A DNA stretch of 58,727 bases from Actinomycetota bacterium (GTDB lineage Bacteria; Actinomycetota; Acidimicrobiia; Acidimicrobiales; Ilumatobacteraceae): the NCBI GenBank assembly GCA_005788815.1, contig SYAZ01000045.1:1-58727 (forward strand), written 5' to 3'. The position numbers and the translations under genes were made by a program. Shown here in pieces: positions 53,024 to 58,727 of this stretch (position 1 is its first letter; each line of letters begins with the position of its first letter). The notes below the pieces were generated by a model. That model was not told where the DNA came from. It was given only the letters and a program-made list of their open reading frames with translations, and searched no databases.

Positions 53024-53863
53024 GTGCGCAGTGGATTCGTGACCTTTGTAGGTCGACCAAATGTTGGGAAGTCAACATTGGTGAACGCAATTTGTGGAGT
53101 CAAGATCTCCATCGTCTCCAACAAGCCGCAAACAACGCGCACTCGAATTCGCGGCGTGTACCACGGTGGCGAAACTCAGATCGTTTTCGTCGACACTCCT
53201 GGTCTTCACAAGCCGGTCACACCACTCGGTGAACGAGTCAACGCAACCGCCCTCGACAGTGTGAAAGATGTCGACATCGTGTGTCTCATCATTGACGCAT
53301 GTAAACCTTTCGGCAAAGGCGATCAGTGGGTTGCGGATCGTATTGATATTAAGAATGCATTTGTCATCGTGAATAAATCCGATAAAGCAACGCGTGAGCA
53401 ATTGATGTCGCAATTACAGGCTGTTTCTGCTCTTGAAGCAGCTGAATATTTCCCAGTGTCAGCGCGAACCAGCGAAGGGGTTCCCGAACTTCTCGCTGCA
53501 CTCGCTGCACGTATGCCGGAGGGGCCTGAGTATTACCCAGCCGACATGGTGACCGACACTGATGATTCTCAATGGGTGGCTGAACTCGTGCGCGAACAAT
53601 TACTTGCAGTGTTGAAAGATGAGTTGCCGTATTCAGTTGCTACCAAAGTGACCGAGTGGGAATGGCCGCGAGTGCGTTGCGAGATTTATGTTGAGCGCGA
53701 AAGCCAAAAAGGAATGGTCATCGGCAAAGGTGGTGAGCTCCTCAAGCAAGTGGGGATACAGGTTCGTGCTCAGATGCCCGAAGGTGCCTTCATAGAGCTG
53801 CATGTGGTGGTCGACAAGGACTGGCAACAGAATCTGGACCGCCTGGAGCGACTCGGTTATTAA
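53024..53863 (+). CDS. era: GTPase Era
   Basis: 279 aa from GTG 53024. G1 GRPNVGKST (residues 10-18), G3 DTPGLH, G4 NKSD, G5 SART and a C-terminal KH domain with GMVIGKGGELLKQVG. Era binds the 3' end of 16S rRNA and guides 30S assembly, working with YbeY, which is 13 kb away here. The frame stays open upstream to 52841, but no homology to Era is seen there. The stop overlaps the convergent helicase by four bases. Confidence 0.93.
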   Translation: MRSGFVTFVGRPNVGKSTLVNAICGVKISIVSNKPQTTRTRIRGVYHGGETQIVFVDTPGLHKPVTPLGERVNATALDSVKDVDIVCLIIDACKPFGKGDQWVADRIDIKNAFVIVNKSDKATREQLMSQLQAVSALEAAEYFPVSARTSEGVPELLAALAARMPEGPEYYPADMVTDTDDSQWVAELVREQLLAVLKDELPYSVATKVTEWEWPRVRCEIYVERESQKGMVIGKGGELLKQVGIQVRAQMPEGAFIELHVVVDKDWQQNLDRLERLGY

Positions 53864-55761
53864 TCCGCGGGGGCGTCGGTGATGTCCTGCAGAAACTTTT
53901 CGATTTCTTCACGGTTTCGGGTGCGCGTCATAGGGGGAAGAGCGCTGATAAGCGTGCGCCAGTAGCCAGCGACAGCGAGTCGGCGATCGAGAACTGCCAC
54001 TACGCCCTTGTCGTTAGCAGTTCGAATAAGGCGACCAGCAGCCTGGGCCAAGGAAGTTGCTGCAATCGGTAAGTCGATTTGTCCAAACGCAACGTCTTTT
54101 CCGACAGCCTCGCGACGGGCTTCGAGCAACGGGTCGTCCGGGCGGGGGAACGGCAGCTTGTCGAGCACAACAAGCGACAAAGTGCGCCCTGGAAGGTCGA
54201 CGCCCTGGAAAAATGATTGAGAGGCAAAGATGCATGAGTTCTCGTCCTCTAGGAACATCTGGATGAGTCGTTGACGTGGATAATCAGATGGGCTCAAGAT
54301 GGGGTACGGAAGGCGCAAACGAAGTTCTTCGGTGGCTTGGTTGAGTGCTTTGTTGCTTGTGAACAGAGCCAATGTGCGCCCGCCAGCAGCGCGAATAAGT
54401 GTTTCCAGTTCGTCGTGTACAAATGCTGTGAAATTAGGAGAATTACGATCGGGGAAATCGGGTGAGCAATACAGTCGCGAGTTCTTTTCGTAATCGAACG
54501 GACTTTCTACGCTGATGACTTCAGTGCCTTCAAGGGGTAGGCCGACTCGGGCAGGCAACGAATTGGGGATAGTGGCGCTAGTGAGCACTGCTGCAACATT
54601 TCCCCACACGGACCCCGACAAAACATCACCCACATGTAATGGACTAATGCGTAATTGTGGTCGCTCTGTGCTTCCCTCTACGTACGCCACGTACCCCTCG
54701 TACTTGCCAAGTGCAAGGTCGAGTGCTTCTGCAAGACGATTGGCTTGGGTTTGAGCGCGCAGGTTCTTTTGGTTAGTGGCTTCGTTGTCTGTCTTAATGC
54801 CCCGCATTTGTCCGATGAGGCCACCAATTTCGATACGAGCGATGGAGAGTGGCTCGGTGATGCTGGTGGGCATGGGGGTGGAGAGACGGTTGCCATGAAA
54901 AGGTGTGAGCGCCGCAGAGAAACGAGTACCGGCTTGTTCCATCTTTGAAGTGATTGTGGGATCGGCAATAACTTTCCTGATTGCAGATGCAAGGGAAGAG
55001 AATCGGCCAGCACTGAGAGCAACTCCCACTGTGTCGCTCATGATGGCTTCAAGTTGGTGGGCTTCGTCGAAGATGACTACTTCGTGCGGCGGCAACAAAG
55101 CGCCGCCACTCGCAATGTGTAACCCATAAATGTGAAGGTTTACAACAACCACGTCTGCTTCTGCGCCACGTTCACGCGCTTTCTCGGCGAAACATTCATT
55201 GCCGACTGGGCAATTCTTTCGCCCTGGACATTCGTCGCTGCCAACGGAAGTAGCACTGCGAGCACGGTCGCTAGGAAGGTGATCTAGTTCTTCAAAATCT
55301 CCGGTAGTAGTGGTGCGCGACCAAGCGATGATGGAGTCAACTTCTTTTTTATAGGACCCAGAAAGTTCTTCGAACTCAAGTTGTGCAGATTTATCTGACA
55401 GTTCATTAACGCGTTGTTTGCACACGTAATTACTGCGACCCTTAATGACGGCCCAAGTGAAATCGATACCCAGATGTTGTGCGAGAAGAGGTAAGTCATT
55501 GCGATGCAATTGGTCTTGCAGTGTTTTTGTAGCCGTAGCTACGACGGTCTTTTTGCCATTGAGTAACGCGGGGACTAGATATCCAAGAGATTTACCGGTA
55601 CCAGTGCCTGCTTGCACGATGATGGAGCGCCCCGAGGCCAAACTTTCCGCAATGGCTGCAGACATATCAATTTGTCCTTGGCGTTCTTCGGCGCCGCTGA
55701 AAGAACTAGTGACTTTGCGTAAAGTTTCGACGGCTGCACGTGCAGCTAATGAACCACTCAT
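53860..55761 (-). CDS. DinG/XPD-like Fe-S superfamily 2 helicase
   Basis: 633 aa. Walker A QAGTGTGKSLGYL (near residue 51), DEAH in VIFDEAHQL (near 230), four cysteines suited to a [4Fe-4S] cluster (YVCKQ, DECPGRKNCPVGNEC, residues about 113-205) and helicase motifs V-VI in SFFQGVDLPG and QAAGRLIRT. DinG-like helicases unwind R-loops and forked DNA. ATG 55761 overlaps the uppS stop (ATGA), so it is translated after uppS. Confidence 0.9.
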   Translation of the reverse strand: MSGSLAARAAVETLRKVTSSFSGAEERQGQIDMSAAIAESLASGRSIIVQAGTGTGKSLGYLVPALLNGKKTVVATATKTLQDQLHRNDLPLLAQHLGIDFTWAVIKGRSNYVCKQRVNELSDKSAQLEFEELSGSYKKEVDSIIAWSRTTTTGDFEELDHLPSDRARSATSVGSDECPGRKNCPVGNECFAEKARERGAEADVVVVNLHIYGLHIASGGALLPPHEVVIFDEAHQLEAIMSDTVGVALSAGRFSSLASAIRKVIADPTITSKMEQAGTRFSAALTPFHGNRLSTPMPTSITEPLSIARIEIGGLIGQMRGIKTDNEATNQKNLRAQTQANRLAEALDLALGKYEGYVAYVEGSTERPQLRISPLHVGDVLSGSVWGNVAAVLTSATIPNSLPARVGLPLEGTEVISVESPFDYEKNSRLYCSPDFPDRNSPNFTAFVHDELETLIRAAGGRTLALFTSNKALNQATEELRLRLPYPILSPSDYPRQRLIQMFLEDENSCIFASQSFFQGVDLPGRTLSLVVLDKLPFPRPDDPLLEARREAVGKDVAFGQIDLPIAATSLAQAAGRLIRTANDKGVVAVLDRRLAVAGYWRTLISALPPMTRTRNREEIEKFLQDITDAPAD

Positions 55762-56444
55762 GCGTTGGCATGCTCTTCATAAGACGCCAAAGCCTTAGCG
55801 AATTCATTGGCATCGAAGTCGGGCCAGGTGCGCTCGGTGAAGTAGATGTGTGAGCCTGTGATCTGCCACAAAAGAAAATTTGAAATACGCGTTTCACCCG
55901 ATGTGCGAACAAGCAGATCTACTTGAGGCATCTGCGGGTCGTACAGATTGGCTTCAATTGCTTGCGGTGTAACTGGGCCGTTGGTCATGGCGCGCTTGGC
56001 CGCACGCACTAGTTCGGCTCTGCTTCCGTAGTCGAACGCGACTGTGACATTGAGGCCGGTATTGCCTTGCGTGTCGGCAATTGCTTTCTTGATGGCCTTT
56101 TGCACATAGACAGGAGTCCGTGCGCCAGATTCGGAGAATGGACGGCCAATCCACTTGGTGCGTGCATTGTTGGAATTCATCTCGTCGGTACGAGAGAAAA
56201 GTTTGCGGTGCAGCGACAAGATGTGGCGCACTTCGGTACGAGGTCGCACCCAGTTCTCTGTAGAGAACCCAAAGACGGTTAACCAGCCAATGGATCGGCG
56301 CGCTGCTTGACGAACTACTTCGGCCAATGCTTCTTCACCTGCTGTGTGGCCGTCGGTACGGGGAAGGCCCTTGCGACGGGCCCAACGGCCATTGCCGTCC
56401 ATGATGCATGCCATGTGCAGAGGAGGCGCTGGTGAGGTTTTCAT
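55758..56444 (-). CDS. uppS: Catalytic cis-prenyltransferase UppS lacking the C-terminal RxG motif
   Basis: 228 aa. The substrate site MDGNGRWA (D16), FGFSTENW, and RTSGETRISNFLLWQ near residue 188 are intact, so the protein should make a long-chain polyprenyl diphosphate (the carrier lipid of wall synthesis). Two canonical C-terminal elements are missing. The Glu of the AYAEL segment is His here (ITGSHIYF), and the protein ends SYEEHANA where homodimeric enzymes have RRFGG. The lost features occur instead in the divergent neighbour at 56523. TAGGGT lies nine bases before ATG 56444. Catalytic identity is firm; sufficiency alone is doubtful. Confidence 0.9.
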   Translation of the reverse strand: MKTSPAPPLHMACIMDGNGRWARRKGLPRTDGHTAGEEALAEVVRQAARRSIGWLTVFGFSTENWVRPRTEVRHILSLHRKLFSRTDEMNSNNARTKWIGRPFSESGARTPVYVQKAIKKAIADTQGNTGLNVTVAFDYGSRAELVRAAKRAMTNGPVTPQAIEANLYDPQMPQVDLLVRTSGETRISNFLLWQITGSHIYFTERTWPDFDANEFAKALASYEEHANA

Positions 56445-56522
56445 GGCAGTAGCACCCTAGTAACTCGTTGTGTCGTGTGAGGTGCAACAGGCTCAAGTGG
56501 CGTGGCGTGAGAGACTAGGAGC

Positions 56523-57143
56523 GTGCCGAATACTGCTGACTTTGTCGAAAATGGTCTGTCTCATGTAGTGGTATCTGGCGGCACACCGGGGCAGTGGCTG
56601 AACATGACCATCGCCGAATGGCAGAGACGATTGTGTTCGTTGTCTGACGGCGCTGCCGCTGGAGGAGCTCACTGGGTCACCTTGCTTCCTCATCATGGTG
56701 AAGATTTCGCCACCGTTGAAAGAGTCAAGTTCAGAGAATTACTCGAGTCGACGGGAAAAATAGTGGTGATCGAAGTGGGTCACGGTGAACGGTACGTGTG
56801 GCATCGCGATAACGGAGTCAATGTGATTGTCGACTGCATGGCAAGTGGGCATGAAAGATTTGCCGCCAATGTAGAGGCCTTGCGCATGCGTGGAGTTTCG
56901 CCCGACGACATGTCCGAAGAACTGTTGTCACAAGAACTGTTGCAGCCAGCAGAGCAAGAAGCCGATTTAGTTGTCGTGATGGGGCCACCACATCGAATGC
57001 CTGAATCAATGGTGTGGGAGCTTGCCTATAGCGAACTTGTTTTTATTGACATTGCTTGGTCCGATTTGAACTCCAGTCATTTGGAGTTGGCAATCGATGA
57101 TTTCAATCGTCGCCACCGACGTTTTGGTGGACTTGACTCGTGA
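56523..57143 (+). CDS. Non-catalytic UppS-like protein resembling NgBR/Nus1
   Basis: 206 aa from GTG 56523; GAGACT lies six bases upstream. The C-terminal third aligns with cis-prenyltransferases: DLVVVMGPPHRM, then VWELAYSELVFIDIAW with Glu 171 in the Mg-binding place, and a final RRHRRFGG with the RxG motif (R200, G202). The N-terminal catalytic motif is gone: VVVSGGTPGQWL replaces IMDGNGRWA, and the RTSGE segment is replaced by VMGPP. The same pattern (DLVLxFGP, TEI, RxG at the end) marks eukaryotic NgBR/Nus1, the non-catalytic partner of DHDDS/Rer2. It is divergent from uppS and coupled to recO (GTGA). The subunit role is inference. Confidence 0.75.
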   Translation: MPNTADFVENGLSHVVVSGGTPGQWLNMTIAEWQRRLCSLSDGAAAGGAHWVTLLPHHGEDFATVERVKFRELLESTGKIVVIEVGHGERYVWHRDNGVNVIVDCMASGHERFAANVEALRMRGVSPDDMSEELLSQELLQPAEQEADLVVVMGPPHRMPESMVWELAYSELVFIDIAWSDLNSSHLELAIDDFNRRHRRFGGLDS

Positions 57144-57859
57144 GCACGTATAGAGACAATGCGGTAGTGCTTGGCTCATACAAGTTCGGTGAAGCAGATC
57201 GCGTTGTTGTGTTATTGACGGAAAAGTATGGCAAGGTACGTGCCGTTGCTCGTGGTGTGCGCAAAACAAAATCTTCTATCGGTGCACGGTTAGAACCCAT
57301 GAGTCATGTCGACATTGCATTGCGTAGTGGCCGTGACCTCGACACTGTTGCTGAGGTGAAATTGGTGCACACGCACTCCGCATTGCGCATGGACTTCGAT
57401 CGCATGAACCAGGGGTTGTCGATGTTGGAAGCCGTCAACAAATTGACACCAGACCGAGAACCAGTACCGCATTTGTATGCGGTACTGTCGCGTGCATTGC
57501 ATGCATTGAATGAGCGCGGGTCTCCACTGATGCTCGGGGCTTTTTATTGGCGACTGCTAGCGATAGAAGGCCATGGACCTCAGTTAGATGTTTGTGTTCG
57601 TTGTGGCGAGGAAGGCTCTATCGCCACGTTTGACGTTCAGGAAGGCGGAGTTCATTGCAGCGCGTGTCGCTCGGGGGTTCCCATCTCGGCTGCTGGGCTT
57701 TCGTTATTGCGAATGATTTTGGGTGGCCAAATGAGTGAAGCACTGAACATGGAAGAAAATTCTGCCGTGACCGAGGTGAGCCAATTGGCAATGGAAGCTA
57801 TGGAGAGTCATCTCGAGCGAAAGCTACGAAGTCTCGGTGTGTTCGACCGCCACTTGTAG
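57140..57859 (+). CDS. recO: DNA repair protein RecO
   Basis: 239 aa. N-terminal OB fold (YRDNAVVLGSYKFGEADRVVVLLT), central helical part and a zinc site with four cysteines (CVRCGEE and CSACRSG, near residues 153 and 174). RecO loads RecA with RecR at gaps. GTG 57140 overlaps the stop of the UppS-like gene (GTGA), so expression is coupled to it. Confidence 0.92.
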   Translation: MSTYRDNAVVLGSYKFGEADRVVVLLTEKYGKVRAVARGVRKTKSSIGARLEPMSHVDIALRSGRDLDTVAEVKLVHTHSALRMDFDRMNQGLSMLEAVNKLTPDREPVPHLYAVLSRALHALNERGSPLMLGAFYWRLLAIEGHGPQLDVCVRCGEEGSIATFDVQEGGVHCSACRSGVPISAAGLSLLRMILGGQMSEALNMEENSAVTEVSQLAMEAMESHLERKLRSLGVFDRHL

Positions 57860-57870
57860 GCTAGATACCT

Positions 57871-58727
57871 ATGCCCGCTAAAGACCTTGAACAGATTGTC
57901 AATCTGTGTAAACGCAGGGGGTTTGTATACCCCAGTGCTGAAATCTACGGAGGTTTCCGTTCCTCATATGACTACGGCCCATTGGGCTCATTGATGTTGC
58001 GCAACGTGAAGGATGCGTGGGTGCGAACCATGGTGCAGCAACGAGACGACGTTGTGCTGATTGACGCAGCCATCCTTGGGCCTCCACAAATCTTTGAAGC
58101 CTCTGGTCACTTGGCGAACTTCTCTGATCCGCTTGTGGATTGCACGGTGTGTAAACGACGTTTCCGTGAAGACCACATTGAGACGCGCGATTGCCCTCAA
58201 GGCATGAAGGGTTGTCAATTTACTGAAGCACGCGCTTTCAACTTGATGTTTAAGACCACAGCTGGCCCAGTAGAGGCTGCGGGTGCAGATGTGTATTTAC
58301 GGCCAGAGACCGCACAAGGCATGTTTGTGAACTTCTCGAACGTATTGCAAACAAGCCGCAAAAAACCACCATTTGGTATTGCGCAAGTGGGCAAAAGTTT
58401 CCGCAACGAAATCACACCAGGAAACTTCATTTTCCGTACTCGCGAATTCGAGCAGATGGAACTTGAATTTTTTGTTCCACCAGCCGAAGGCCCGAAGTGG
58501 TACGAGTACTGGTGTCAAGCACGTATGGACTGGTACGTGGAACTTGGCATTCCACGCGAGATGTTGCGCATAAGGGCTCACGATGCCGATGAGCTCTCGC
58601 ATTATTCAGCCGGAACCAGCGATGTTGAATTTATGTTCCCGTGGGGATGGGGAGAACTAGAAGGAATTGCACAACGCACCGACTTCGACCTCACCCAGCA
58701 CTCAAATGCATCAGGCCAAAAGTTGGA
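57871..58727 (+). CDS. glyS: Glycyl-tRNA synthetase, alpha2 type (3' partial)
   Basis: 285 codons are present before the right edge. LEQIVNLCKRRGFVYPSAEIYGG, the zinc-type CTVCKRRFRED and CPQGMKGC segment, and class II motif 2 FRNEITPGNFIFRTREFEQME with RPETAQGMFVNF are all diagnostic of the single-chain, dimeric GlyRS. TAGGCT overlaps the recO stop and lies eight bases before ATG 57871. It charges tRNA-Gly. Confidence 0.95.
   Translation, partial: MPAKDLEQIVNLCKRRGFVYPSAEIYGGFRSSYDYGPLGSLMLRNVKDAWVRTMVQQRDDVVLIDAAILGPPQIFEASGHLANFSDPLVDCTVCKRRFREDHIETRDCPQGMKGCQFTEARAFNLMFKTTAGPVEAAGADVYLRPETAQGMFVNFSNVLQTSRKKPPFGIAQVGKSFRNEITPGNFIFRTREFEQMELEFFVPPAEGPKWYEYWCQARMDWYVELGIPREMLRIRAHDADELSHYSAGTSDVEFMFPWGWGELEGIAQRTDFDLTQHSNASGQKL

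Follow-up and report, generated by a model that had tools for sequence, protein, structure and literature searches.

A candidate two-subunit undecaprenyl diphosphate synthase encoded by divergent genes in one actinobacterial family

Can the active site of a bacterial cis-prenyltransferase be divided between two unlike genes? The question is raised by a stretch of DNA of 58,727 nucleotides from a member of the Ilumatobacteraceae (Actinomycetota; positions 1 to 58,727 of contig SYAZ01000045.1, assembly GCA_005788815.1), hereafter the window, which is contig C31 of a 1.53 Mb assembly in 112 contigs that is 68% complete. Two homologs of the undecaprenyl diphosphate synthase UppS are encoded in it: subunit A, a UppS-like, predicted catalytic cis-prenyltransferase, on the reverse strand at 55758-56444, and subunit B, a degenerate UppS homolog, on the forward strand at 56523-57143. 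Both were delineated by open reading frame (ORF) and by a match to the Pfam family PF01255, together with residue counts for A and the count of the motif RRFGG for B; from the ORF positions, a divergent intergenic region of 78 bp (56445-56522) lies between the two start codons. Judging from their sequences, A and B very probably make up an obligate heteromeric synthase of undecaprenyl diphosphate, or of a similar medium-chain product, that would resemble human DHDDS/NgBR in its working.

Cis-prenyltransferases are described in a review as homodimeric in bacteria and plants, and as heteromeric in fungi, animals and plants (PMC7839719); the bacterial enzymes are elsewhere said to act as homodimers (PMC5110245). 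In the human enzyme, the C-terminus of NgBR with its RxG motif is described as crossing the dimer face into the active site of DHDDS, and the kcat of the DHDDS/NgBR pair is given as approximately 400-fold above that of DHDDS alone (PMC7573591). For the archaeon Methanosarcina mazei a heteromeric cis-prenyltransferase has been described, as has the homodimer MM_0014, in which the C-terminus of one subunit covers the opening of the other subunit’s cavity (PMC8131916).

Subunit A of the window comprises 228 residues from an ATG start and matches PF01255 with 223.5 bits over model positions 1-214 of 219; its best match in the PDB is 7cpn (E 1.5e-48). It carries the motifs DGNGRWA and RTSGE, ends in SYEEHANA with no RxG, and has the segment GSHIYFT, corresponding to YAELYFT in E. 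coli UppS, so that a His occupies the position of the Glu. Subunit B comprises 206 residues from a GTG start and matches PF01255 with 52.8 bits over model positions 125-219 only. Direct reading of its sequence found neither the DGN nor the RTSGE motif; it reads WELAYSELVF, where the YSEL segment holds a Tyr and a Glu (Y169 and E171), and its C-terminal end, with RRFGG, is NRRHRRFGGLDS. An earlier note, made from the letters of the DNA alone, had described the main motifs kept and lost by the two proteins, and the ORFs and sequences bear out its account of each, the His in A included. In searches with a B profile the best match was E. coli UppS (E 3.5e-19, C-terminal part), human NUS1 being matched more weakly (profile positions 28-180 or 30-180, E 7e-4 to 5e-3), and most UppS matches were confined to the C-terminal half, with 1f75 as an exception.

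The division of residues between the two genes was followed across the family in an alignment that combined 62 complete sequences of each subunit with 28 UppS sequences of the one-gene type and was numbered after E. coli UppS, the one-gene set consisting of 24 sequences from other families of the order and 4 from the window’s own family. The loci derive from 34 + 40 regions, with 2 further regions used in the synteny counts only; the complete sets leave out truncated A sequences (L068, L069, L070, L073 and L124, of which L069 was classed as A and not as a one-gene UppS) and partial B sequences (L071, L072 and the two pieces of L106). D26, N28, R30, H43 and R194 are present in all 62 A sequences and in none of the 62 B sequences. 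Conversely, Y211 is found in no A and in every B, E213 in four A and in every B, and R239, R241, R242, F243 and G244 are retained throughout B, all 62 copies of which have RRFGG at the C-terminus. No A sequence has an aligned RxG or a glycine in the G244 column, and in 61 of the 62 the motif is absent from the last 14 residues altogether. The catalytic Asp is followed by 207-218 residues to the end of the protein in 62/62 A, which leaves A without a C-terminal extension of the DHDDS type. Human DHDDS is not known to have the Glu at the E213-like position and NgBR has it, and NgBR also has the DLVxxxGP and (Y/T)xE(L/I) pattern to which the earlier note had drawn attention.

The partition extends beyond the named motifs. 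Among 69 columns that are at least 95% conserved in the 28 one-gene UppS, 31 are kept by A only, 8 by B only (G61, E174, Y211, E213, R239, R241, R242 and G244), 6 by both and 5 by neither, the rest being intermediate in A, in B or in both. B retains 8 of the 14 columns that A has lost as against 6 of the 48 that A has kept (Fisher p 0.0014, in a test that excludes 7 columns kept by A at intermediate frequency): the complementary loss between A and B is more than chance. What the earlier note had read from a single pair, namely that the features lost by one protein are present in the other, is thereby confirmed in 62 copies of each, and two elements are added to it, in that Tyr211 is also partitioned to B and the split pattern is family-wide. 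In all 28 one-gene relatives a single chain holds both the catalytic Asp (D26 in 28/28) and, at its C-terminus, RxG (in the form R[RL]x[GS]; G244 in 28/28), as is characteristic of a homodimeric UppS, and this combination occurs in neither partner, B being without the Asp and A without the aligned RxG in every copy. The pair instead has the composition of a heteromeric cis-prenyltransferase, with a catalytic subunit, A, that carries D26, N28, R30, H43, R194 and R200 in 62/62 sequences, and a non-catalytic homolog, B, that supplies RRFGG in as many.

The two genes also occur together. At least two PF01255 matches are present in 110 of the 121 genomes of the family, the second match being known by count only in part of these, while A and B were read in one locus in 62. 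The remaining 11 genomes comprise four with one full-length match (model positions 1-219; G287, G295, G325 and G373), four metagenome-assembled genomes (MAGs), 77-81% complete, with no match, two with B only (G197, where B starts at a contig edge, and G300, with a partial match), and one, G364, with A and a stop-interrupted B. Profile searches, which were run in 13 genomes including all seven with a single match, found neither A nor B in G287, G295, G325 and G373, of which the last is only 72% complete. Among the loci read there is no relative that has A and lacks B, the nearest case being the interrupted B of G364. B is present even where A lies apart, on another contig in G289 and approximately 10 kb away in G365; in G352, A ends within about 10 bases of the contig end, and this locus is uninformative on linkage. 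Three single-contig genomes that are 99% complete (G061, G170 and G307) have A and B as their only PF01255 matches, and no second full-length UppS with RxG was found in these three or in the window’s genome at its 68% completeness. G061, G170 and G307 each carry two to three PF00953 genes and two PF00348 genes. We take PF00953 to represent MraY/WecA-type enzymes, which use the lipid carrier; these genomes would then have the users of the carrier and yet be without a complete one-chain enzyme making it. This context suggests that the predicted product is the bacterial cell-wall carrier.

As A retains the residues of its own pocket and B those that reach across, one working site per A-B pair would be expected. 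In the mechanism that we propose, A would bind farnesyl diphosphate and add isopentenyl diphosphate in cis in its own pocket, through the set formed by D26, R30, H43, R194 and R200; B, which has no working pocket, would pair with A via the usual cis-prenyltransferase dimer face, and its RRFGG tail and the Glu of its YSEL segment would enter A’s active site. In an ordinary homodimeric UppS the role of the tail is mutual between the subunits, whereas in the A-B pair the roles would be divided, with a single active site per pair. The partition itself points to Y211 and E213 as residues that may act across the interface; physical pairing of A with B, activity and product length are likewise inferred.

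Structure models were calculated with AlphaFold2 from eight sequences, and gave a mean predicted local distance difference test score (pLDDT) of 69 and a predicted template modeling score (pTM) of 0.70 for B, with 59 and 0.66, respectively, for A. A Foldseek search with the B model returned 74 PDB chains with E-values of at most 0.001, and the 50 listed were all cis-prenyltransferases with probability 1.00; a NUS1 chain was not among these 50 of the 74. The superposition was poor (template modeling score 0.38-0.46 by query length, root-mean-square deviation near 10), and at this level of modeling the result is taken to confirm B’s fold family only.

Several observations weigh against a division of labor between A and B. 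R200, present in all A, is retained in 33 of the 62 B sequences; the five columns missing from both partners are conserved in one-gene UppS; E213 is retained in the A of L089, L094, L119 and L122; and the A of L102 (genome G294) ends in ARSRQGS, where an RxG tripeptide stands out of alignment with RRFGG, the sole case in 62. The single-chain models of both proteins are weak. In G364, which is 93% complete, A is intact and B is in place with one internal stop. The PDB chains 2vfw and 2vg1, which we take to be a mycobacterial short-chain Z-prenyl synthase, stop short of the RxG position when aligned to B, so a homodimeric cis-prenyltransferase without RxG may exist. Yeast Nus1 is described as having no canonical RxG, and human DHDDS alone as having weak activity as a homodimer (PMC7573591).

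Three of these points, the end of the chains 2vfw and 2vg1 before the RxG position, the low activity of human DHDDS homodimers (PMC7573591) and the stop in B in one MAG, would also fit an account in which A alone is an active homodimeric UppS without RxG, and B is a decaying relic or has an unrelated role. We consider this very unlikely. Complete, intact copies of B number 62 and come from many genera, and a relic would not be expected to retain Y211, E213 and RRFGG in every one of them; moreover, of 26 columns that are invariant in B over 31 members, 19 fall within residues 139-194 (numbering of the alignment’s first row), a stretch that includes the tail and the YSEL segment. The three single-contig genomes have no full-length enzyme other than A, which can thus hardly be just a short-chain side enzyme. 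It is very unlikely, too, that B serves chiefly as a regulator or membrane adaptor of A, with an RRFGG tail that is not needed for catalysis: an N-terminal membrane segment could not be accommodated in the window’s B, where 13 residues precede the first predicted strand, which begins at residue 14, and conservation in B is highest in the YSEL segment and the tail, whose residues are the ones that A is missing. An assembly, frameshift or annotation error that split or truncated one normal gene, as might be suspected in a genome of 112 contigs and 68% completeness, was rejected as next to impossible, since the same arrangement recurs in the three genomes that consist of one contig at 99% completeness, as well as in dozens more, and since A and B are open, conserved at the protein level and divergent, and not two pieces of one frame. 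The interpretation put forward in the earlier note, of A and B as complementary subunits of one enzyme, is well supported as a prediction from sequence. Two of the findings that the note had named as refuting it were looked for, and in the genomes and loci covered neither a second full-length UppS with RxG beside A nor a relative with A alone came to light.

Some individual copies of the two genes deserve mention in their own right. The A sequences of L089, L094, L119 and L122 have the Glu equivalent to E213 without Y211 or RxG, and perhaps represent an intermediate state of the split. The stop in the B of G364 (L125, contig C8, 1956-2426) is either a sequencing error or real decay. In G006, two contigs (C79 and C178, with L044 and L070) each carry an A gene and the two genes differ, perhaps because two strains were binned together.

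The A/B split is a trait of one family, as far as the order and the phylum were sampled. In the order sample, the B profile detected 9/9 genomes of the window’s family at E 1.2e-34 or better, and the best of the other 239 genomes reached 6.8e-28 with the C-terminal part only; in the phylum sample, 9 of 246 genomes passed 1e-30, all of them from the window’s family. A first neighbor survey included 24 genomes from the order’s other families, and each of these had a single full-length PF01255 match. Within the window’s family, a group of aquatic bacteria, the split is a stable trait. Among the sequence relatives of the locus are public MAG records titled Bifidobacterium breve (L033, L036 and L039), whose copies of the locus share 57-63% protein identity with that of the window, a label that looks wrong; the remaining relatives are in records titled Actinobacteria, Actinomycetota or Acidimicrobiaceae MAGs.

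The genes on either side of the pair bear on its origin. On A’s strand, at 53860-55761, lies a gene recognized by Pfam helicase domains and by synteny, which we take to be a dinG-type helicase and which is a conserved neighbor that marks the ancestral locus. On the forward strand, recO (57140-57859; ORF, Pfam and synteny) overlaps the end of B by 4 bases, and is followed by a gene at 57871-58727 that runs off the window and is presumably of the glyS type, as judged from the ORF and its synteny. The last two are the second and third genes of an ancestral uppS-recO-glyS order: uppS lies upstream of recO on the same strand in 23 of the 28 one-gene loci (at a distance of approximately 1.4 kb in L019), and dinG is on the opposite strand to uppS in the 8 one-gene loci where it is visible. 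In all 62 loci that hold both, A and B are head to head, with B on recO’s strand in 61/61 and A on dinG’s strand in 57/57 of the paired loci in which these neighbors were seen. By this gene order, B occupies the slot in front of recO that was ancestrally that of uppS, and A is an added, inverted gene. In the simplest history the helper, B, would be the original uppS and the catalyst, A, the newcomer.

Tree inference, by a quick method in each case, was carried out on every third complete A and B sequence with named extras, and again on every fourth A with extras. The sampled A sequences form one clade and the sampled B sequences another. A branches outside the order’s other UppS with modest support (92 in the first tree, 86-87 in the second), and in the second tree three sequences of family f81 branch further out than A. 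The branch leading to B amounts to 4.8 changes per column, and B’s ancestry rests for this reason more on synteny than on the tree. A may be a duplicate or an old acquisition, the trees deciding for neither. A foreign donor was sought in the phylum sample and none stands out, the best score outside the family being 247.6 bits (f73) as against at least 368.7 bits for A; when the profile was built locally from the same A alignment, the order’s one-gene UppS scored up to 249.9 bits. We suggest a single origin of the pair, early in the family’s history, when an inverted second uppS would have landed beside the old one; the old copy before recO, now B, may then have lost catalysis, and A the elements that work across the dimer face.

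The other 5 of the 28 one-gene loci represent a divergent type of UppS, in which the motif reads RTSSE (L103 and L107 of genus g172, L108 of G373 and L025 of G038) or RTSAE (L026 of G053) and which ends in a C-terminal RR[MKR]G; recO, dinG and glyS were not detected around it in the stretches read. In G295 and G325, both of genus g172, this divergent type is the sole PF01255 gene found; neither A nor B occurs there, which looks like a replacement of the pair by this type.

Heteromeric arrangements are known in humans, yeast, plants and one archaeon, and the bacterial case appears new; among the matches listed from the open-licence literature, outside which most subscription papers fall, no title or abstract contains a bacterial heteromeric cis-prenyltransferase. 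We think it likely that the pair represents a bacterial heteromeric undecaprenyl diphosphate synthase whose origin, within a single actinobacterial family, was separate from that of its eukaryotic and archaeal counterparts, with the copy in the ancestral slot becoming the helper and the inverted copy the catalyst. If so, the splitting of cis-prenyltransferases would be an event that arises repeatedly and need not go with membrane anchoring, and an essential homodimer would here have become an asymmetric enzyme in which each pair has a single active site. The pair would further provide a small, apparently soluble system for testing the role of the helper subunit, and, as evolution has sorted its residues column by column, it offers a natural experiment on which of them act in cis and which in trans.

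Comparison with known systems places the pair as follows. HexA/HexB, HepS/HepT and the large and small subunits of plant GPPS (LSU/SSU) also consist of two unlike subunits; these are, however, trans-prenyltransferases and belong to a different enzyme family. For HexA/HexB and plant GPPS, one subunit is described as catalytic and the other as setting product length or regulating (PMC7839719). To the homodimeric UppS of E. coli, Micrococcus luteus and Thermobifida fusca the likeness is one of family, which is clear for A and limited to the C-terminal part for B, and of position, B occupying the native uppS slot by synteny, whereas the full active-site set of these enzymes is found in neither A nor B alone. 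MM_0618/MM_1083 of Methanosarcina mazei is likewise prokaryotic and heteromeric, and is cited as yielding a glycosyl carrier lipid with C45-50 products (PMC8131916), but it is archaeal and was likened to A/B by description only. The closest parallel in working is with DHDDS/NgBR (NUS1) and Rer2/Nus1, in which two homologs, one catalytic and one non-catalytic, are combined and the C-terminus of the latter, with RxG in NgBR, completes the active site (PMC7573591); in systems of this type the non-catalytic subunit is reported to resemble other enzymes at its C-terminus only (PMC7839719). The DHDDS/NgBR-like split proposed in the earlier note does not extend to descent or to the full anatomy, as the window’s B has no membrane anchor and A no C-terminal extension, and as the pair stands in the context of the bacterial cell wall, with locus and sequence matches tying both proteins to bacterial UppS. 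What A and B would share with the eukaryotic enzymes is the working principle, and in this respect the proposal stands.

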